A DNA stretch of 42,784 bases from Oceanicaulis sp. BBD 1991-10 (GTDB lineage: Bacteria > Pseudomonadota > Alphaproteobacteria > Caulobacterales > Maricaulaceae), in the NCBI GenBank assembly GCA_001657295.1, contig LYSW01000040.1, positions 1 to 42,784 of the forward strand. The letters are read 5' to 3'. The first letter of the stretch is position 1. Each line of letters starts with the position of its first letter. Positions 18,683 through 38,938 of the stretch are shown piece by piece. Below the pieces are notes generated by a model. The model ran no database searches, was not told the origin of the DNA, and was given only the letters and a program-made list of their open reading frames with translations. The translations under genes were made by a program, and so were the position numbers.

Positions 18683-18686
<4 letters not shown>

Positions 18687-20092
18687 CCCAACGCCTCCAG
18701 CTCCGCAGGCAATTCCGCCGCCCAGGCCGTGATGTCGCCGGCGCCCAGGCATACGATCAGGTCACCATGGGCGGCCTTTTGCTTCACATCCGAAGCAAGT
18801 GATGTTCGCGACGTCTGCGCAGCGTCGCGATGACCGTGGCGCGCCAAGCCTTCAACCAGGCCGGCCGCGTCCGCGCCGTCGATGGGCTCTTCGCCCGCCG
18901 CGAAGACCGGCGCGACCAACACGCTGTCGGCGTCGTTGAAGCAGGTGCAAAACTCATCGAAGAGATCATGAAGGCGGCTATAGCGATGGGGCTGAACCAC
19001 TGCATGCACGCGCCCCTCGCCGGCGCGTTGCCGCGCAGCCTTAAGGACCGCTGCGATCTCCACGGGATGATGACCATAATCATCAATGATGGTGACGCCG
19101 CCCGCCTCGCCGACCAGGGAGAAGCGGCGCTTGACGCCGGTGAAACCGGCGAGCCCGGCGCGGACTTCGGTCTCATCGCCGCCGAGCGCCTCGACGACTG
19201 CGATGGCGGCGGCGGCGTTGAGCACGTTGTGCTCGCCCATCATGGGAAGTTGAAGCTCGGTCCAGGTGTCGGCCGCGTCATCGCGGGCCTGGAAATTCAA
19301 CGAAAACTTCGCGCCCGAAGCATCCATGACCAAGTCGGTGATCCGCACATCCGCCTGAGGCGATTGGCCATAGGTGATCACACGGCGGTCCTCGATCCGG
19401 GCCGCAAGGGCCTGAACCTCGGGGTGGTCCACACACAGCACGGCGAAGCCGTAAAAGGGCAAATTCTCGACAAATTGCTCAAAAGCCGCGCGGAGCACGT
19501 CGAAGCTGCCGTAATGCTCCATATGTTCGGGATCGATATTGGTGATGATGCCGACCGAGCCGCGCAGCTTCAGGAAAGAGCCGTCGCTCTCGTCGGCCTC
19601 GACGACCATCCAGTCGCCGCCGCCCATTTTGGCGTTGGAGCCATAGGCGGAAATAATGCCGCCATTGATGACGGTGGGGTCAAACCCGGCCGCGTCCATC
19701 AGCGCGGCCACCAGGCTGGTCGTCGTCGTCTTGCCATGGGTGCCGGCGACGGCGACGGCATGTTTTAGCCGCATCAGCTCTGCAAGCATCTCGGCGCGGC
19801 GCACCACCGGCACACGGCGAGACCGCGCCGCAACCAGTTCAGGATTGTCCGCCTTCACCGCGCTGGAGACCACCAGCGCGCCCGCGCCGTCCACATTGGC
19901 GGCGTCATGGCCGATATGGATGACGGCGCCTTTCTTCCGAAGCCGGGCTGTGTTGGCGCTGTCCTTGATGTCGGAACCGCTGACCGCATAGCCCAGATTG
20001 AGCATGACTTCAGCGATGCCGCTCATCCCAATACCGCCGATGCCGACGAAATGGACGGGCGCGACGGAGGCGGCGAGATCAATAGGCGGCAT
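18683..20092 (-). CDS. murC: UDP-N-acetylmuramate--L-alanine ligase MurC
   Basis: Adds L-Ala to UDP-MurNAc. The 469-residue protein has an intact N-terminal Rossmann motif ([17 protein letters not shown]), the ATP loop GTHGKTTTT at residues 117-125, the [11 protein letters not shown] segment, [12 protein letters not shown], the domain 3 hinge region ([31 protein letters not shown]) and [11 protein letters not shown]. These preserved motifs make a useful internal control: the neighbouring murD homologue lacks the equivalent residues. It starts 8 bases after murG and overlaps murB. Confidence 0.97.
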
Positions 20093-20100
20093 GAGGCTGG

Positions 20101-21186
20101 TCAGTCCCTGCAGGCGGCGGTCATCAGATCGGCGAGCCGAATGTGCGCATCAAGCCGGCCGGCGGCGCGCGCCGCCTCGGCTTGAGCGGCCAGAGCTTCG
20201 CTGTCTGAAAGGGCTGTTTCAAGGCGGGCTGACAGCATATCTGCGGCGAATTCAGGTTCTGCGATGGCGATCGCCGCCCCGGCCGCCACCAGGTTGCGCA
20301 CATTCGCTGTTTGATGGTCGTCCATGGCGATGCCGAGCGGCACGAAAATCGCCGGCCGGCCCATCGCTGCAATTTCGCTGACGGAGCTTGCCCCCGCCCG
20401 GCTGATCACCAGATGCGCATCGCGGTAAAGCGCGCCCATGTCGGAAAAGAAAGGCGCCAGCTCCGCCTTGACGCCGGCGGCGTCATAGATGGCGCGCGCT
20501 TCGGCCAGGGTCTCCTTTCGGGTCTGCTGAACGACGCGCAACCGCTTGCGCAGTCCCGCGGGCAATTGCGCCAGCGCCTTGGGTACGGTCAGGGACAAGA
20601 GACGCGCGCCCAGACTGCCGCCGACCACCAGCAACCGGATGTCGCCTTCAGCCTCCGGCGCCGTGTAGTCGGCGACCGCCTCCAGGATCGGCGCCCGCAG
20701 CGGATTGCCGGTGACTTCGCGGCGCGTGCCGGGCTTCAGGCGCTCGAGCGTTTCGAAACCGGACGCGACCGCGAAAGCCGAGCCGGCGAATAGCCGGTTC
20801 ACCCGGCCGAGCACGGCATTTTGTTCATGGATGACAAATGGCGTGCCCGACAGGCGCGCCGCCGCCAGCGCCGGAAAGGCGGGATAGCCGCCAAAGCCCG
20901 CAACCACGTCAGGATTGAACTCCGCCATCGTGTCGCGGGTCGCGCCAAACCCCCGCGCCAAGCTGACCAAGGCCTTCGCGGCGCGCAGCGGGTTTTTCTG
21001 AAACGGGCTGGCCGCCTCGATGACGAGCGGCGCGTCTCCCGGAAAATCTTCCGCGTGCACTCGGCCGCGCACATCCGTGACGAGGCGGACCCGCCAGCCG
21101 CGGCTGACCAGTTCGCCGGCCGTGGCGCGCGCAGGAAAGATATGCCCGCCGGTCCCGCCGGCGGCGAACAGCGCGCGGCGCTTCAT
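20101..21186 (-). CDS. murG: UDP-N-acetylglucosamine transferase MurG
   Basis: Converts lipid I to lipid II at the inner face of the membrane. ATG 21186 overlaps the ftsW stop as ATGA and gives 361 residues. Motifs: [13 protein letters not shown] near the N-terminus, [48 protein letters not shown], and the donor-binding region [38 protein letters not shown] (in segments). All are conserved in MurG. It takes MraY's product from the same cluster. Confidence 0.96.
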
Positions 21187-22313
21187 GCGACCGCCTGCCG
21201 GCGCGGCGGCGGGGCGTAGGCGCCCGGGCGCTTGCCGGTCAGCGCCAGCAGCAATCCGGCCGAAAAGCACAGCGCGAGCATGGACGACCCGCCGTAGGAA
21301 ATGAACGGCAAGGTCATGCCCGTGGGCGGCGCGATGTCCAGATTGACAGCGATATTGACCAACGCCTGCAGCCCGAACAGCAGCGCCAGGCCGGACGCGG
21401 CGAGCTGAGCGAACGGATCCTCGAGACGCAGCGACAGCATCCAGGCGCGGGCGAACAGCAAGGCGTACAACCCGATGATCGCCAGGGAGGCGATGAGGCC
21501 GAATTCCTCCGCCGCGACGGAAAAGATGAAATCGGTATGGGCTTCAGGCAATACGTGCTTGACCTCGCCTTCGCCCGGCCCGGCCCCCCAAAATCCGCCG
21601 CGCGCGATAGCGTCCATGGCGATATCGGTCTGGGTGCGCGCGGCATCCGGCCCGGCCGGCGACAAGAAGTCGGCGATGCGCGCTCGAACATGGGGCAGCA
21701 GCGCATAAGCGCCGCTGGCGCCGGCGATCACGAAGCCGGCGAGCAGAGCCGTGTATCTCCATGCCAGGCCGCCCGCCCAGAGCAGGGCGCCGAAGACCAG
21801 CGTGATCAGCACGGTCTGACCAAAATCTGGCTGCACCAGGAGTAGTCCCGCCGCGAGGATGTATAGTCCGAAGGCGATCAGCCGGCCGGGCGCCGGGGCG
21901 CCGCGGTCTTCCTCAACGAACAGCCAGGCGATCATAACCACGAAGGCGGGTTTCAGGATTTCGCTGGGCTGCAGCGAAAACCCGCCAAGACGCACCCATC
22001 TTTGCGCGCCGTTCACGTCATGGCCCGCGACCGCGACGATCGCCAGCAGGATCAAGCTCGCCAGCAGAGCCAATCCGGACATGCGTCTGACACCGGTGAT
22101 GCTCAGGGCGCTGGTGACCAGCAAAACCGCAAGGCCCGCTGCAGCGAACACGATCTGCCGTTTGAGATAATACCAGGGATCCGCCGCGCTCGAGACTGCG
22201 GGGCTCGCCGCGAAGGCGAGCACGACGCCGATCACCATCAAAAACAGGACGGTGGCGAAGATGGATCGGTCCAAGCCGCTCCACGGCCAGGCTCGGCGCG
22301 AATTCTGGGTCAT
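21183..22313 (-). CDS. ftsW: Lipid II polymerase FtsW (SEDS family)
   Basis: Septal glycosyltransferase working with FtsI. The 376-residue polytopic protein has about ten predicted helices. SEDS signatures are ALSITGVRRMSGL, GAQRWVRLGGFSLQPSEILKPAFV, LLVQPDFGQTVLI and LPEAHTDFIFSVAAEEFGLI, ending with GMTLPFISYGGSSMLALCFSAGLLLAL. The N-terminus is basic and cytoplasmic (RRAWPW). Its ATG overlaps the stop of the degenerate murD as ATGA, and its stop overlaps murG, so its translation may depend on ribosomes finishing the murD homologue. Confidence 0.97.
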   Translation of the reverse strand: MTQNSRRAWPWSGLDRSIFATVLFLMVIGVVLAFAASPAVSSAADPWYYLKRQIVFAAAGLAVLLVTSALSITGVRRMSGLALLASLILLAIVAVAGHDVNGAQRWVRLGGFSLQPSEILKPAFVVMIAWLFVEEDRGAPAPGRLIAFGLYILAAGLLLVQPDFGQTVLITLVFGALLWAGGLAWRYTALLAGFVIAGASGAYALLPHVRARIADFLSPAGPDAARTQTDIAMDAIARGGFWGAGPGEGEVKHVLPEAHTDFIFSVAAEEFGLIASLAIIGLYALLFARAWMLSLRLEDPFAQLAASGLALLFGLQALVNIAVNLDIAPPTGMTLPFISYGGSSMLALCFSAGLLLALTGKRPGAYAPPPRRQAVA

Positions 22314-23623
22314 GCGGCCTCTTTCTGGCGTATCGCATCCGTCAATTGGGCCATCGCCGCGGTCAGCGCATCCAGCGGCGCCTCATCCTGACCTGACTCG
22401 CAGGCGGGCGCATAAATGATCCGGGCGTCTGGACCGGCCCGGAGCGCGGCCAGGCTGGCGCGCGCCAACAGCGCTCCGATGTCCGTCGTTACGCGCGTCG
22501 GGCAAAGGCGTGACAGTTTGCGCGCGGCGCGGCGACGATCACCGGTCATGAAAACCGCGTTGGGCGCGCAGCCCTCCGCCCCGATAAACGCAGCGGCGCC
22601 CGGGTCCAGCGCGGGTCCGGCGATCCAGATCACCGGACCCCGGGTGCTCAGCGCTTCGATCGCGTCGCGAGAGGTCGTCGCCGAAGACCAGTCGAGCAGC
22701 AGGATCGGGCCGAGCGACGCGACAGGGCGCCCATGTCCCGCGATGCCTTCGAAGCCGGACAGCAGGTCTCGCAACCGTTCCGGCGCATAATTGAGACCGC
22801 GCAGCACCGCCCACGCCATGGCGAGCGCGCCCTGCGGGGCGTATTCAAGGGCGGGCGCGGCGCCGAGCGGCGCCATCTGGCGCGGCGGGCCGTTCAGGCC
22901 GTCAAACAGCGTCCCGCCTCTTGCAAACACGCCGCCCGCCAGGGCTTGCCGCCCCGAGGTGAGAATCGCCCGGTCTGTGGCCGCCATCGCAAGGCGCCGC
23001 GCCGGCGCATGATCGGCGTCCAGGATGACGGGCCCGCTCGTGCGCCCGATCAGGGCCTTGAGGGCGGCGCTCTCCTCCTCCGCGATGTCGCCAACCGCGA
23101 TCAGGTCCGGCGCCGGCGCCAACGCCGCGGCGGTCTCCACAGCGACAAGGCACACCGCGCCGCGCGCCGCGGACGCCGCCTCCGCTTGCAGGTCCGGTCC
23201 GATGCAATCGGCGCCGGATTGGGCCAAAAGCGCCTTCACGATCTGCGCGGCTTGGGCCGCGCCGCCGCCGATGAAGGCGCAGACCGTCAGGCCCTGGCGG
23301 CAGGCCGTCTCGACCATAAGACTGGCCGGGCATCGCACCGGGATGTCCAGGGACCTGGCCAGTTCAACAGTCCCGATGGACACGTCCTCACCCAGCATGC
23401 CGCCGTCGCCCGCGACGAGCAGCGCCAGATCCGACCAGTCCCGCGTCGACGGGTCCTCCAGGCGCAATCCCTCAGCCTGCGCGGCGTTTCGGCGCGCTTC
23501 GTCCTCGTCCCAGACCGTGACCTGCGCGCCGCCTGCGGACAGCGCCCGGGCGGCCGCCAGCCCCTCTTTGGTGAGACGCAGCACCGCGACGCGGCGTCCG
23601 GCGTAGGCGCGGACCGGGATCAT
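22310..23623 (-). CDS. Degenerate MurD homologue (predicted pseudoenzyme in the murD position)
   Basis: Occupies the murD slot between mraY and ftsW; 437 residues, the normal MurD length. Remnant similarity runs end to end: VAVLRLTKEGLAAARAL at 12-28, DIPVRCPASL, LSGFEGI, WIAGPALDPG and YAPACES (compare SPACAS in MurD). The defining residues are gone. The ATP loop GTNGKST is replaced by GGGAAQA (119-125; lysine position Ala123), NDSKATN by DWSSATT (311-317; lysine to Ser314), the ELSSFQ region by VAVETAA, and the HN-x-x-N motif by PQGAL. The N-terminal glycine-rich turn (GLG) reads LRL. Lys189 may match the carbamylated lysine. The frame is intact, AGGAG precedes the ATG by 5 bases, and the stop overlaps ftsW. 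Ligase activity is very unlikely; a structural or regulatory role is inferred. An annotation pipeline may call it MurD. Confidence 0.85.
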   Translation of the reverse strand: MIPVRAYAGRRVAVLRLTKEGLAAARALSAGGAQVTVWDEDEARRNAAQAEGLRLEDPSTRDWSDLALLVAGDGGMLGEDVSIGTVELARSLDIPVRCPASLMVETACRQGLTVCAFIGGGAAQAAQIVKALLAQSGADCIGPDLQAEAASAARGAVCLVAVETAAALAPAPDLIAVGDIAEEESAALKALIGRTSGPVILDADHAPARRLAMAATDRAILTSGRQALAGGVFARGGTLFDGLNGPPRQMAPLGAAPALEYAPQGALAMAWAVLRGLNYAPERLRDLLSGFEGIAGHGRPVASLGPILLLDWSSATTSRDAIEALSTRGPVIWIAGPALDPGAAAFIGAEGCAPNAVFMTGDRRRAARKLSRLCPTRVTTDIGALLARASLAALRAGPDARIIYAPACESGQDEAPLDALTAAMAQLTDAIRQKEAA

Positions 23624-23631
23624 TCAGACTC

Positions 23632-24732
23632 CTAGCGCAGTTTCAACGTCGACAACCCAATCAGGGCGAGCACGAACGCGATGATCCAGAAACGGATCAC
23701 GATCGTCGGCTCCGCCCATCCCAATTTCTCAAAATGATGGTGAATCGGGGCCATCTTGAAGACCCGTTTGCCGAACAGTTTGAAGCTGGCGACCTGGACC
23801 ATCACCGAGACGGCCTCCAGCACGAACAGCCCGCCGATGATCACCAGAACGATCTCATGTTTGACCGCCACCGCGATCGCGCCGATCGCGCCGCCCAGCG
23901 ACAGCGAGCCGGTATCGCCCATGAAGACCATTGCGGGCGGCGCATTGAACCACAGAAAGCCAAGACCTGCGCCGATCATCGCGCCGCAAATCACCGCCAG
24001 CTCTCCGGTGCCGGGCGTGAAATTGAGGAAGAGATATCCGGCGTAAACGGAGTTGCCGACGAAATAGGCGATCAAGCCGAACGCGCCCGCCGCGATCATC
24101 ACCGGCACGATGGCCAGGCCGTCCAGACCGTCGGTGAGATTGACCGCATTGGAGGCGCCGACGATCACCACCATGCCGAACAGGAAGAAGGCGAAGCTGA
24201 GGGGAATGAAGACGTCCTTGAAAAACGGCACGGCGACAGAGGTCGCAAAGCCGTCCGGCGCGTCCGGTGCGTTCGACAAGAGCTGGACCATCCAAACGAC
24301 CGCGATCAGGGCGACGGCGAATTGAAGGACCAGCTTGCCCTTTCCGGACAGGCCCCTGTGGGATTTCTCGGTGACCTTGCGCCAATCATCGATGAAGCCG
24401 ATGCCGCCAAAGCCGGCGGTCACGAAAAGGACGACCCACAGATACTGGTTCGACAAGTCGCCCCACAAAAGTACCGACGCGATCAACGCGGCCAGGATGA
24501 TGAAGCCGCCCATGGTCGGCGTTCCAGCCTTGGCGACGATATGGCTTTCAGGACCATCATCGCGGATTGGTTGGGTGCCTTTGGTCTTCAGCCAGCGAAT
24601 GAAGGGCTCGCCCATGATCACTGCGATGACGAAGGCCGTCATCAAGGCGCCGCCGGTTCGAAACGTGAGATAGTTGAACACGTTGAACAGCTGGAACTGC
24701 TCGGAAAACGGCGCGAGAAACTCGTAAAACAT
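23632..24732 (-). CDS. mraY: Phospho-N-acetylmuramoyl-pentapeptide transferase MraY
   Basis: Integral membrane enzyme transferring phospho-MurNAc-pentapeptide to undecaprenyl phosphate (lipid I). The 366-residue protein has about ten helices. Diagnostic segments: [38 protein letters not shown] (aspartates of the active site), [39 protein letters not shown] and [24 protein letters not shown]. It starts 6 bases after murF and ends 8 bases before the murD homologue. Confidence 0.98.
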
Positions 24733-24738
24733 TGAAAA

Positions 24739-26151
24739 TCAGGCCTTTGTTGACGCAGGCGCGCGAGACTGGCGCAGAGATGCGGCAAGAGTGTGTACCC
24801 GCGAAGCATTCGACCCTTTGATTAACACGAGGTCTCCGGACCGCAGCTGGCCATGCAGGCTTGATTCAGCTTCAGGCGCAGTGGCGAACCAGACAGCCTC
24901 CACCGTGGAGGGCAGGGCCTCCAGGAGCGGCCGCGCACCCTCCCCGACCCCGATCACGAGCTGCGCGCCGGAAGCGGCCAGCGGCTCGGCGAGCGCGGCG
25001 TGCATGGCCGCAGACCGCGGTCCCAGCTCGAGCATTTCACCTAGGATCGCGACGCGGCGGCCGCCGGCCTCGGGGCGGCGCGCGGCGAGCGCTGAAAAAG
25101 CGGCCCTCATGCTGGCCGGGTTGGCGTTATAGCTGTCGTCGATGACCGTCAGAACCCGGTCGCCATCAAGTCGCGCGTGGAACACAGCCCCGCGGCCCGA
25201 CGCCGGCGCCAATTGCGCAAGCGCGTCAACGGCGAGCTCTGCATCCACGCCGGCCGCGAGCGCCGCCGCGACCACGCCGGCCGCATTGATCGCCTGATGG
25301 GCGCCGGTGAGTTTCAGCCGGAAGGCGAGCCGGCGGCCCATGACATCCAGCTCACCGACGCCGCCATCTGCGCCGTCTTCATAGCGCATGACCCGCACGG
25401 CGGCGCCGCGGGCTTGCCCGAAATCGATCAGGAAACCCGCCTTGGAGCGCTTGACCGCGTCGGTCAGGCGTGGCGCGAATTCGTCATCGGCGGGGATGAC
25501 CGCGACCCCGTCGTCGGCCAGCGCGGTGAAGATCTCCGCCTTGGCGTCTGCGATCGCCTCCATGGAGCCGAGATTTTCAAGATGCGCCGGCGCGATCTTG
25601 GTGATCAGAGCCACATGCGGGCGCACCAAGGCGACCAGGTCGGCGATTTCACCGGCATGATTCATACCCATTTCGAAGACCGCGCGCTCGGTCTCGGAAG
25701 GCATGCGGGCCAGGGTGAGAGGCACGCCCCAATGATTATTATAGCTTTTCTCGCTCCAGTGAGCGCGGCCCGCCGCGCGGAAGACCGCAGCCAACGCCTC
25801 CTTGACGCTGGTCTTGCCGACCGAGCCCGTGACGCCGACGCGCACGGCGCCGGATCGGATGCGCGCCGCCTCGGCCAGCGCGCGCAAGGCGGCGAGGACA
25901 TCGTCTACGACCAGGCGCGGGCCCGATGCGGCCTCAGGTTTGGACACCAGCACCGCCGCCGCACCGGCCTTGAGCGCGGCCTCGGCGAATTCGTGACCGT
26001 CGCGCCTGTCTGCAAGCGCAACGAAGAGATCGCCAGGCTGCAGCGTGCGCGTGTCGATCGACACGCCGGTCGCGCTCCACCCGCCGTCTGTGAGCTGGCC
26101 GCTCACCGCGTTTGCAGCGTCCGCCGCCGTCCACAAGACCGGCGGGCTCAA
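24739..26151 (-). CDS. murF: UDP-MurNAc-tripeptide--D-alanyl-D-alanine ligase MurF
   Basis: Adds D-Ala-D-Ala to complete the pentapeptide precursor. The 470-residue protein has SIDTRTLQPGDLFVAL (31-46), the ATP loop GVTGSVGKTS (106-115), NNHWGVPLTLARMP, FEMGMNHAGEI, GAHQAINAAGVVAAAL, VIDDSYNANPASMRAAF and LGEMLELG. The catalytic signatures are intact. The start is a TTG in a TTGA overlap with murE, with AGGGG about 9 bases upstream; a rare start codon here may lower output relative to murE. Confidence 0.96.
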   Translation of the reverse strand: MSPPVLWTAADAANAVSGQLTDGGWSATGVSIDTRTLQPGDLFVALADRRDGHEFAEAALKAGAAAVLVSKPEAASGPRLVVDDVLAALRALAEAARIRSGAVRVGVTGSVGKTSVKEALAAVFRAAGRAHWSEKSYNNHWGVPLTLARMPSETERAVFEMGMNHAGEIADLVALVRPHVALITKIAPAHLENLGSMEAIADAKAEIFTALADDGVAVIPADDEFAPRLTDAVKRSKAGFLIDFGQARGAAVRVMRYEDGADGGVGELDVMGRRLAFRLKLTGAHQAINAAGVVAAALAAGVDAELAVDALAQLAPASGRGAVFHARLDGDRVLTVIDDSYNANPASMRAAFSALAARRPEAGGRRVAILGEMLELGPRSAAMHAALAEPLAASGAQLVIGVGEGARPLLEALPSTVEAVWFATAPEAESSLHGQLRSGDLVLIKGSNASRVHTLAASLRQSRAPASTKA

Positions 26152-27599
26152 GACGCGGCCCCTGCAAGGATGCGCGCAATGATAGCGGCCTCATCGAAAG
26201 CCACCACCTTGTCGCCGATGATCTGGCCGGTCTCATGACCCTTTCCGGCGATCAGCAGCACGTCACCGGCGCCCAGGGCGTCGACGCCGACCCGGATGGC
26301 GCTTTCCCGGTCCGCGACCTCGGTGGCGCTTGGCGCACCTTGTAAAATGGCGGCGCGGATGGCCGAGGGGTCTTCGCTGCGCGGGTTGTCGTCGGTCACG
26401 ATGATCTTGTCGGCGAGTTTTTCGGCGACCGCGCCCATCTTTTCGCGCTTGGAGGGGTCACGATCTCCGCCGGCGCCGAAAACCAGGACGATCCGGCCTT
26501 GGGTATGCGGCCGGGCGGCGCGCAAGAGCTTGTCCAGCCCGTCGGGCGTGTGTGCGTAGTCGAGCAGTATCGGCGCGCCTTGCCGGGTTCGCCCCACGCT
26601 TTGCATTCGCCCCGCCACGCCGGTGAGCGCACCGAGCGCCTCAAAGGCGGTATCGGGCTCGACGCCGGTCGCGATCGCAAGCGCGGCGGCCACCACGGCG
26701 TTGGCGCTCTGAAACTCGCCGATCAACGGCAGCTCCGCTTGATGATCGGCGCCGCGCCAAGCGAAATGCAGGGTCTGGCTGGCGGGGCGCGGGGTGATTT
26801 CGGCGATCGCCAGATCGCGCCCGCGCCATCCAACGGTGATCACGTCCAGACCCGCTGCGCGGCATCCCTCTGCGACCTTGTCCGACCAATCGGAATCCAT
26901 GTGAACGACGGCTGGCGCGCCATCTTCGGCGAGGGCGGAGAAGAGACGCATTTTGGATGCGAAGTAATCGGCGAAATCCGGGTGATAATCCAGATGATCC
27001 TGGGTCAGATTGGTGAAGGCGGCGGCTGTCACGCGCACCCCGTCCATCCGCTTCTGCTTGAGACCGTGGCTGCTGGCCTCCATCGCAAGATGGGTGACCC
27101 CTTCGCCCGCCAGCGCATCGAGCGAACGATGCAGGGCGATGGCGTCCGGCGTGGTGTATCCGACCTCCGTCCGCCCGGACGCGCGCGTCACTCCCAGCGT
27201 GCCCAGACAGGCCGCCTCGTGGCCGGCCGCCGCCCAGATCTGGCGGAGAAACTCGACCGTCGAGCTCTTGCCGTTGGTGCCGGTGACCGCCGCGATGGTT
27301 TCGGGCTGGCGCGGATAGAAGCGGGCCGCAATCGCGGCCAGAGCAGCCGCCGGATCGTCGGCTTCGACCACAGGGACCGGCGCGGGCGTGCCAGGCGGCG
27401 CGAGCACCGCGACCGCGCCGCGGTCCACCGCCATGGGAATGAATTTCCGGCCGTCGGTGTGCACGCCGGGCAGCGCTGCGAAGAGATCGCCTTGCGCGAC
27501 CTTGCGGCTATCAAGCGCCAGCCCGCCGATTCTCAGATCAGCGGCCTCGGGCGGCGCAAATCGCGCGCCGGGCGCCAATTCGGCGAGCGTGCGGGTCAC
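26148..27599 (-). CDS. murE: UDP-MurNAc-L-Ala-D-Glu--meso-diaminopimelate ligase MurE
   Basis: Adds the third stem-peptide residue. I start at GTG 27599, overlapping the ftsI stop as GTGA, with GGAG about 8 bases upstream (483 residues); the open frame upstream lies within ftsI. Motifs: LALDSRKVAQGDLFAALPG (28-46), ATP loop GTNGKSS (107-113), MEASSHGL, TNLTQDHLDYH, the carbamylated-lysine region ASKMRLF (Lys216), LDYAHTPDGL and the DNPR motif at 404-407, which indicates meso-diaminopimelate rather than lysine. Its substrate is the product that MurD normally makes. Confidence 0.96.
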   Translation of the reverse strand: MTRTLAELAPGARFAPPEAADLRIGGLALDSRKVAQGDLFAALPGVHTDGRKFIPMAVDRGAVAVLAPPGTPAPVPVVEADDPAAALAAIAARFYPRQPETIAAVTGTNGKSSTVEFLRQIWAAAGHEAACLGTLGVTRASGRTEVGYTTPDAIALHRSLDALAGEGVTHLAMEASSHGLKQKRMDGVRVTAAAFTNLTQDHLDYHPDFADYFASKMRLFSALAEDGAPAVVHMDSDWSDKVAEGCRAAGLDVITVGWRGRDLAIAEITPRPASQTLHFAWRGADHQAELPLIGEFQSANAVVAAALAIATGVEPDTAFEALGALTGVAGRMQSVGRTRQGAPILLDYAHTPDGLDKLLRAARPHTQGRIVLVFGAGGDRDPSKREKMGAVAEKLADKIIVTDDNPRSEDPSAIRAAILQGAPSATEVADRESAIRVGVDALGAGDVLLIAGKGHETGQIIGDKVVAFDEAAIIARILAGAAS

Positions 27600-29425
27600 G
27601 GCTGCTCTCCGGCGGCGGTCGGCAATTGCACGGGCTCTTCGGCGGGCATGACGGCCCGGGCGCGCGGCGCGAACATCGCAGCGACATTGGAGATGCGCGC
27701 CTGTGGATCCACTTCGCGCCGGTCGAGATTCAGCACGCCCGCGAGCTGCTCCATGATTTCTCCCGCCGCCGGCATCGCCGTCCATCCTGCTGTCGCGAAG
27801 CCGTGGGTCTCGGCGGTTGGGCGGGGACGGTCAAGGCTCACCGTCAGCACGTATTGCGGGTCATCGAAGGGGAACACGCCCACGAAGGTGTTGAAGCGAT
27901 CATCATCGGCGTATCCGCCGCGCACCGCGCGCTCGGCGGTCCCGGTCTTGCCGGCCACCGCCAGGCCCGGAATATCCGCCGAACCGGTTTGGGAGCGCAC
28001 CACGGTTTCGCGCATGACGCCCAGGACCTGCGCCGCCACTTGCGGGCTCATGACCGGATCGCCGGCGACGCTTTCACCAGGCGCGACCGGCCGCAAGGTC
28101 GGCGGCACATAGACCCCGCCATTGGCCAGCGCGCCATAGGCCGCGGCGAGCGCCAGAGGGCTCACGGCGAAGCCGTGGCCGTAGGAGGCGGTCATGGTCT
28201 GAATGCGCCCCCAGCGCTGGGGCAGCTGCGGCGCCCCGCTTTCCGACAATTCGATCGGCGCCGCATCGAACAGGCGCAGCGAGCGGTAGAAGTCGGCCAG
28301 CACCTCCGGCGTGATTTGATCGGCCATGCGCGCGGACGCGATATTGGACGAGAACAGGATGGTTTCGCGCGCCGTCAAAGGACGGTTTTCGCCGCGATAA
28401 TCCCCGATCGTATGGCCGCCGATCCGCACAGGCTGCGAGGCGTCGAAGACATCTTCGAGACGGACGCGGCCGCTTTGCAGGCCGGCCGCGAGGGCCAGGG
28501 GCTTGAAGACGGAGCCGAGCTCATAGACGCCCCTGCTCGCCTGATTGAAATGGGGATGAGTCGCGCCGGGACCGGATGGCTGCGCGTCCGCCCACAAATT
28601 GGGATCAAAGTCCGGCAGGGACGCCATAGCGATGATCTCACCGGTTCCCACGCGCATCAGAACCGCAGAAGCGCCGGCCGCCTGGTGTTCGGCCATGCGC
28701 CGGCGCAAGACGCTTTCGACGCGGTGCTGGGCGGTCAGGTCGATCGACAGGACAACGGGGGCCGCGCCTTCCGCCAGCTCGGCGTCGAACGCCAGCTCCG
28801 CGCCGGCCAGGCCTTGATTATCGGCGCCGACATAGCCCAGCACATGGGCGGCGGCGCGCTGTTTGGGATAGACCCGGCCTGGCTCGGACTGGAAGAAGAC
28901 GCCGGGCAAGCCCAGCATGTGGATCGCCTGCCGCGTACGCGGTGAGACGCTCTCGGCGATCGACACATAGCGCGTATCCGACTGCAAGCGGCGCAGCAGG
29001 CGCTCTTGATCAAGATCCGGCAGCACGGTCGACAATTGTTCGACCACCTCGCGGGCGTCCCAGACATAGTGCGGATCGGCGAACACAGTGTGAAAATCCA
29101 GCGTCGCCGCGAGTATCTCGCCGTCGCGGTCGACCAGCATGGCGCGGCGTGCGGCGACTTCGGCGGTGCGCGCGGCGGCTTCGGGCCCGGCCCCGGTCAT
29201 CGAGACTTCGACCGCGCGCCCGGCGGCCACCAGGAAACCGGCGGCGAAAACCATCCCGATCACCGTCAGGCGCCGGCGCTGGCGCTCGGGCGCCGCTGCG
29301 CCCTGCGCGGGCAGATGGAGCGTCCGCGTCGCCCCGGCCGGCGAAGCCTCGCCCGGCGCAGGCGGAGCCGGTTCTGAAGACGCGCTAACCTTAACCGGGC
29401 GCAGGAGGCGGCGGATCAGCTTCAC
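27596..29425 (-). CDS. ftsI: Septal peptidoglycan transpeptidase FtsI (PBP3)
   Basis: Class B penicillin-binding protein crosslinking septal peptidoglycan, partner of FtsW. The 609-residue protein has a Pro/Ala-rich cytoplasmic tail, one helix at about 53-72, a pedestal domain with RRAMLVDRDGEILA, and a transpeptidase domain with the active-site S-V-F-K at 305-308, SSN at 359-361 and KTGT at 493-496. A C-terminal extension of about 90 residues follows. The start is GTG, 5 bases after the ftsL stop, with a distant GAGGGG. The stop overlaps murE. Confidence 0.97.
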   Translation of the reverse strand: MKLIRRLLRPVKVSASSEPAPPAPGEASPAGATRTLHLPAQGAAAPERQRRRLTVIGMVFAAGFLVAAGRAVEVSMTGAGPEAAARTAEVAARRAMLVDRDGEILAATLDFHTVFADPHYVWDAREVVEQLSTVLPDLDQERLLRRLQSDTRYVSIAESVSPRTRQAIHMLGLPGVFFQSEPGRVYPKQRAAAHVLGYVGADNQGLAGAELAFDAELAEGAAPVVLSIDLTAQHRVESVLRRRMAEHQAAGASAVLMRVGTGEIIAMASLPDFDPNLWADAQPSGPGATHPHFNQASRGVYELGSVFKPLALAAGLQSGRVRLEDVFDASQPVRIGGHTIGDYRGENRPLTARETILFSSNIASARMADQITPEVLADFYRSLRLFDAAPIELSESGAPQLPQRWGRIQTMTASYGHGFAVSPLALAAAYGALANGGVYVPPTLRPVAPGESVAGDPVMSPQVAAQVLGVMRETVVRSQTGSADIPGLAVAGKTGTAERAVRGGYADDDRFNTFVGVFPFDDPQYVLTVSLDRPRPTAETHGFATAGWTAMPAAGEIMEQLAGVLNLDRREVDPQARISNVAAMFAPRARAVMPAEEPVQLPTAAGEQP

Positions 29426-35168: not shown

Positions 35169-35317
35169 AACGGGCGTGAATTTACGGCCTGCGAGCTGAT
35201 TTAGCTACGGCTTCGCGCAAGCCGCATCGCCGCAGGCGCTCCGCTTGCCAAAGGCCGCCCGCCGGTGTTGATGCTTGCGTCAGCCCGGCTGACGGGCGAG
35301 CCTTGAGGGACCACGCC

Positions 35318-38938
<3,621 letters not shown>

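Follow-up and report, generated by a model that had tools for sequence, protein, structure and literature searches.

An eroded MurD in the dcw cluster of Oceanicaulis: a candidate pseudoenzyme under purifying selection

The window analyzed here is a 42,784-nucleotide stretch of Oceanicaulis sp. BBD 1991-10 (contig LYSW01000040.1) that carries a division and cell wall (dcw) cluster. In the murD slot of this cluster we found an intact gene whose product has lost the motifs of a Mur ligase. We propose that this eroded MurD is a MurD-derived pseudoenzyme kept after its D-glutamate (D-Glu) pathway was swapped for one of the MurD2–MurL type, probably for a binding role together with coupling to ftsW, and we put the probability of this reading at roughly two in three. 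The observations that carry it were all made on sequence: the loss of motifs, a second MurD and a MurL homologue elsewhere in the genome where no MurI (glutamate racemase) was found, purifying selection on orthologues, and a conserved overlap with ftsW.

Loss of ligase motifs from the dcw-encoded MurD

The eroded murD lies at 22310..23623 on the minus strand and encodes 437 amino acids, starting with ATG and ending with TGA, with mraY on one side and ftsW on the other. The initial annotation of the window had described an intact, full-length and weakly MurD-like open reading frame (ORF), and this description, including its coordinates, proved exact: the MurD model TIGR01087 matched at 29.7 bits (E = 3.3e-7), missing the cut-off of 211.95. 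A Pfam scan gave no match at E ≤ 10, a direct sequence search of the PDB returned chance matches only, and the best non-MurD matches were weak, of the Rossmann type and located at residues 5–79. When five other orthologues from the genus were scanned against NCBIfam, four matched the MurD model at 21.1, 22.4, 29.9 and 32.4 bits, and the fifth gave no match at E ≤ 0.01. Structure prediction from the eroded sequence alone was uninformative. In a model built on an alignment of intact MurDs (34 of the 37 found; L111, L158 and L161 omitted), MurD was the top fold match, the alignment itself being part of the input.

Alignment to intact MurDs showed that the counterpart of the ATP-binding P-loop TGTNGKSTT is IG-GGAAQA (residues 118–126; 23246..23272, minus strand). 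This remnant has no lysine, as had been noticed initially; the first later lysine is residue 130, and the lysine column holds Ala in all 11 orthologues of the genus. The reading of NDSKATN as DWSSATT (22673..22693, minus strand) was likewise exact, and the reported losses of ELSS and HN-x-x-N were seen in the alignment, in which ELSSYQL, the segment from DHLDRH to the carbamyl-lysine, GRHNAQN, HRQE, GGQAK and SPACASFDQF are lost, altered or deleted. In the window's genus, the N-terminal domain has lost its SPG motif as well. The glycine-rich N-terminal motif, which had been described as lost, is lost only in part (GLGRTG to RLTKEG). An active MurD was expected to score above 211.95 bits with TIGR01087, to carry the TGTNGKST P-loop with its lysine, and to possess NDSKATN, ELSS, HN-x-x-N and SPACASFDQF; the eroded MurD has none of these features and is probably inactive. 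It shares with canonical dcw MurDs the mraY-murD-ftsW position, the length, residual similarity and the top fold match of the alignment-based model, but differs from them in the loss of the catalytic motifs, as an enzyme homologue that has lost its catalytic residues would.

To place this loss, we used a sample of 61 genomes: 15 of the window's genus, 22 from the rest of the family (NCBI places Oceanicaulis in Maricaulaceae) and 24 from the rest of the order. One genus member, G014, corresponds to Oceanicaulis sp. MMSF_3324, as the named record L093 contains 3,000 bases of its dcw region. The eroded murD is full-length and free of internal stops in 11 of the 15 genus genomes. Because the motif loss is repeated in all 11, including the window's, it is no chance effect. 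We found nothing in favor of a sequencing or assembly artefact, and this explanation is scarcely conceivable, since the losses recur across 11 species that were assembled separately, three of them (G010, G011 and G012) as a single contig; we rejected it on this recurrence. An active ligase whose catalytic site has diverged strongly would be consistent with the full length and with the fold match obtained from the MurD alignment. However, the P-loop lysine, NDSKATN and the carbamyl-lysine segment are absent from 11/11 orthologues, and a second MurD above the cut-off is present; we consider such a ligase highly improbable and rejected it on the motif loss. The 11 orthologues retain 42–55 of the 142 columns that are conserved in 22 intact-motif genomes, and 16 residues that are rare in intact MurDs (≤3/22) are common to 10 or 11 of them. 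Residues specific to the eroded set at this frequency include R5, D73, A122, G224, R225, G296, D311 and G411.

A second MurD and a MurL homologue outside the window

The initial annotation had found a dead MurD unexpected, MurD being essential in the standard pathway; the organism is not deprived of this step. The genome assembly to which the window belongs (completeness 98.95%) encodes a single MurD above the cut-off (282.8 bits versus 211.95), which is located on a different contig (G000:C81:79758-81077). Convergent with it, with 3' ends overlapping by 4 bases, lies a gene for a MurL homologue (model NF041275, E = 8.5e-78, 261.8 bits, residues 50–446), which has no solved relative in the PDB at E ≤ 0.001. 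MurI was not found in this genome by a search that was positive in 11 of 14 control genomes. Together, the MurL homologue and the second MurD encoded elsewhere in the genome would account for survival without a working dcw MurD.

In the MurD2–MurL route of Xanthomonas, L-Glu is ligated first, and its epimerisation follows at the level of the nucleotide precursor (PMC8788868; PMC5808125). The window genome resembles this pathway in that its second MurD adjoins a MurL homologue and MurI was not found; in contrast to ten loci from genera that PMC8788868 names as having the pathway (Xanthomonas and others; see below), the window's genus has retained the old dcw MurD in an eroded form. Oceanicaulis is absent from the genus list of PMC8788868, in the parts covered. 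The same source ties positions K319 and K348 (E. coli MurD numbering) to the choice between L- and D-Glu, and the second MurD has Leu at the former and Arg at the latter, which suggests that it likely uses L-Glu.

The MurL homologue was found in 15/15 genomes of the genus, in 1/22 of the rest of the family and in 3/24 of the rest of the order. A second MurD of the genus type was found in 14/15, the exception being G004, whose fragmented 1.7-Mb assembly yielded none. MurI was detected in 29/61 genomes overall and in 0/15 of the genus. Scores for D-amino-acid transaminase formed two groups, a strong one (≥187.8 bits) and a weaker one (≤159.2 bits), a divide chosen in this analysis; no genome passed the curated cut-off, and the best score in the genus was 153.5 bits. 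Of what marks a MurD2–MurL pathway (the ligase, a MurL homologue and the absence of D-Glu-forming enzymes), the first two are present and MurI was not found, and the absence of a transaminase depends on our own score gap.

The gene for the second MurD lies beside that for the MurL homologue in G000, G002, G003, G009, G010, G006, G007 and G014, and the two are far apart or on separate contigs in the sub-clade G001, G005, G008, G011, G012 and G013. Among the 61 genomes, D-Glu supply in the order appeared as a patchwork of MurI, a strong transaminase homologue or MurL, none of which was seen in the draft genomes G016 and G029.

Purifying selection and the overlap with ftsW

Selection on the eroded murD was evaluated with pairwise codon models. 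Seven of 55 possible genus pairs (closely related ones, plus two that include the window genome) were fitted, and then eight, five of them repeats. In the seven measurable pairs, the ratio of nonsynonymous to synonymous substitution rates (dN/dS, omega) was 0.163, 0.134, 0.150, 0.148, 0.141, 0.162 and 0.246, with likelihood-ratio test (LRT) statistics of 87–180 against omega = 1. These pairs have dS values of 0.53–1.18 and all fall within the sub-clade G001, G005, G008, G011, G012 and G013, the sister of the window's. In 54 neutral simulations with stops forbidden, dN/dS was 0.61–1.24; for neighboring dcw genes, it was 0.021–0.135 in four of the seven pairs. When five genus pairs were analyzed by domain, omega was below 1 in every domain, ranging over 0.06–0.22 in the N-terminal and middle domains and 0.15–0.51 in the C-terminal domain, which showed the weakest constraint in G005/G008 (0.51). 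Across six pairs, the nucleotide alignments contained either no indel or indels of 3, 3 and 12 nt. The saturated pair G002/G003 showed two gaps of 4 nt, which were taken as alignment noise because both frames are open.

Decay with stop codons, the outcome that the initial annotation had named as refuting a pseudoenzyme, was absent from all 11 gene-bearing genomes of the genus, and the dN/dS comparison that it had called for, at 0.134–0.246 in the sister sub-clade, indicated purifying selection. In the orthologues of that sub-clade, a sequence without catalytic motifs is therefore kept by selection, and the candidacy of this protein as a MurD-derived pseudoenzyme, with its motifs lost and its ORF intact, is sustained. 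Purifying selection implies that the protein still does something.

The stop codon of the eroded murD and the start codon of ftsW (21183..22313, minus strand; TIGR02614 336.7 bits, cut-off 337.5) share an ATGA overlap at 22310..22313 (minus strand), which is kept in 11/11 genus orthologues and suggests translational coupling to ftsW. The gene could on this account be a relic that serves as an operon spacer, its product inert and its open frame needed only for the ATGA hand-on to ftsW and for uninterrupted transcription. The invariable overlap is consistent with this idea, as are the fast evolution of the eroded murD and the arrangement in the four genus genomes from which murD is absent, where ftsW starts 12–56 nt after the last mraY codon. 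However, a spacer in which stops are forbidden should show dN/dS near 1, as simulated, rather than the values observed for the whole gene and for its N-terminal and middle domains, and it would not be expected to hold in common the 16 residues rare in intact MurDs. ATGA coupling alone has no power to explain the amino-acid constraint on the eroded MurD. We consider a spacer quite unlikely, and a neutral relic as a full account is ruled out by dN/dS and the stop-free simulations.

The start of the eroded murD lies 8 nt past the stop of its upstream neighbor mraY (23632..24732, minus strand; TIGR00445 390.2 bits, above the cut-off). Also on the minus strand are murF (24739..26151) and murE (26148..27785) on the mraY side, and murG (20101..21270; TIGR01133 257.9 bits, above the cut-off) and murC (18683..20092) on the ftsW side. 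Profile scans and motif checks of the other ligases partly supported the initial statement that they keep all motifs: the P-loops of MurC, MurE and MurF are intact, and MurC retains GEHNVLN and MurF DDSYNAN, whereas simple patterns missed some of the motifs named. The cluster also contains mraZ, rsmH, ftsL, a PBP3-like gene, murB, ddl, ftsA, ftsZ and lpxC. Separately, the window encodes a 1211-amino-acid protein (35303-38938, plus strand), presumably hydantoinase/oxoprolinase-like, whose halves match the models of caprolactamase alpha and beta subunits, both below the curated cut-offs.

Fate of the dcw murD and a candidate binding role

The four murD-deleted genomes of the genus form one clade (100% support). 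IQ-TREE (71% support) and FastTree (0.95; tree without G004) both join it to the window's sub-clade. The simplest interpretation is a single deletion within the genus, the exact position of which is modestly supported. Since the motif losses are common to both gene-bearing sub-clades, the erosion is older than their split.

We also analyzed a second family, f5, taking all 20 of its MurL carriers in a 398-genome sample of a larger order. It yielded 14 complete eroded murD ORFs and one more, in G256, cut by the contig end; G159 has a partly eroded dcw MurD (122/142 conserved columns), G219 a nearly intact one, murD is deleted in G097, and no murD adjoins mraY in G146 and G191. All 15 clearly eroded ORFs retain the GK of the P-loop, unlike those of the window's genus. 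Two unsaturated pairs of the eight fitted gave dN/dS values of 0.036 and 0.087. The f5 eroded MurDs (in L090–L092 and L173–L189) have lost NDSKATN and the C-terminal motif and are sometimes highly conserved; the pair with dN/dS 0.036 (G092/G187) is 93.6% identical.

These f5 proteins may have retained nucleotide binding or possibly acquired a new activity. This bears on the explanation that the eroded MurD is neofunctionalised, having gained an enzymatic or ligand-binding function that has nothing to do with MurD; it might, for instance, sense cell-wall precursors. Besides the f5 ORFs, which lack NDSKATN and with their GK may still bind nucleotide, the residues specific to the eroded set would fit such a function. 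In the window's genus, however, the nucleotide site and the SPG motif are both gone, and the protein has no convincing match to another family. We regard neofunctionalisation as rather unlikely.

Among MurL-negative genomes, the dcw MurD retains its motifs with minor substitutions in 23/23 examined, which were those with available loci or chosen as controls among the 42 MurL-negative genomes of the 61-genome sample. Complete loss appears to be the other outcome: at ten loci from genera that PMC8788868 names as having the pathway, 25–159 nt lie between the mraY match and the beginning of the ftsW match, too little for a murD (Stenotrophomonas, L116, L117 and L132; Dyella, L119, L149, L151, L162 and L170; Pseudoxanthomonas, L121; Xanthomonas, L128). 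A close spacing of mraY and ftsW that likewise has no space for murD was seen in lineages not on that list, at L104, L131 (Wenzhouxiangella), L156 (Marinicella), L114, L168 and L098. L150, a metagenome-assembled genome labelled Rhizobium sp., has a dcw cluster without murD and a mraY-ftsW spacing identical to that of Arenimonas L172; it is possibly mislabelled or contaminated.

Under the pseudoenzyme reading, the pathway swap would have left the dcw MurD without its D-Glu substrate; with no further need for D-Glu ligation, the active site could be lost, an event that would have preceded the split of the two gene-bearing sub-clades. In most species, a full-length, non-catalytic MurD would then have been kept by purifying selection and translated immediately ahead of ftsW via the ATGA overlap, so that its translation would also feed ftsW. 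The retained job would be binding, in the former place of MurD in the assembly of Mur ligases, MraY, MurG and FtsW; alternatively, the protein may regulate a Mur ligase, either the second MurD or a different one. A binding role appears the most natural retained function because Thermotoga MurD binds MurG and MreB, according to the parts of PMC6420597 and PMC4929429 covered. A partial parallel is the prozyme of trypanosomes, a dead paralogue that activates its partner (PMC5201418, as far as covered): in both cases, a dead homologue stands beside an active one. Unlike in that system, it is the copy at the original site that is dead here, its active counterpart resembles a distant substitute, and any partner of the eroded MurD is hypothetical. 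We found no report of an eroded dcw MurD in open-licence PMC papers (preprints not covered).

Several observations weigh against this proposal. The score of the MurL homologue falls far short of the 700 bits curated for NF041275, a Xanthomonadales equivalog, and we therefore name it a homologue only. The second MurD has Asp at the D182 position, unlike the Glu of Xanthomonas MurD2, and so shows only the Arg at K348 of the L-Glu signature of MurD2 (Glu at D182, Arg at K348). Weak transaminase homologues in 14/15 genus genomes could still make D-Glu. Intact-MurD controls gave lower omega values than the eroded MurD (0.034, 0.060 and 0.094 in three pairs with dS up to 1.21; the remaining three of six fitted had dS ≥ 3); constraint on the eroded murD is below that on a working MurD and far from neutral. 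Between G000 and G002, the eroded MurD is 51% identical and MraY 93%; the eroded MurD thus evolves faster than its neighbors. Every fitted pair with the window genome was dS-saturated; omega = 1 was rejected (LRT 221 and 169), and the omega value itself is meaningless. Selection in the window's own lineage is taken by extension from the sister sub-clade together with this rejection. The gene is dispensable in the deleted clade (4/15), which shows that its role is one that can disappear or pass to another factor. Two genomes keep a motif-bearing dcw MurD despite a MurL homologue: f5 G219, where it is nearly intact (130/142 conserved columns), and G023 of the window's family (L088 dcw; MurL homologue at G023:C3:1687-2970, second MurD present, MurI not found), where it retains its motifs (127/142) and the swap is perhaps recent. 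Finally, PMC6420597, in the parts covered, cites localisation work in Caulobacter that names MurB, MurC, MurE, MurF and MraY, and not MurD.

For the biology of these bacteria, a bypass encoded elsewhere in the genome apparently explains the eroded MurD, and a dead essential enzyme is no longer a paradox. It also serves as a warning for annotation, as the murD of a dcw cluster is not necessarily a working enzyme. It has long been suspected that Mur ligases also play a structural part in a complex with MraY, MurG and MreB; because their catalysis is essential, the two roles are difficult to tease apart in model organisms. In the lineages described here, evolution may have done so, with a MurD that is apparently without chemistry and still selected. 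Tentatively, and at a little less than even odds in our judgement, the swap from D-Glu to MurD2–MurL, apparently at least twice, split MurD catalysis from a structural or regulatory role and left a MurD without ligase motifs as a conserved non-catalytic component, in a series from intact through partly and fully eroded to deleted. The question of a structural role would thereby become directly testable, with the gene-deleted neighboring clade as a built-in comparison.

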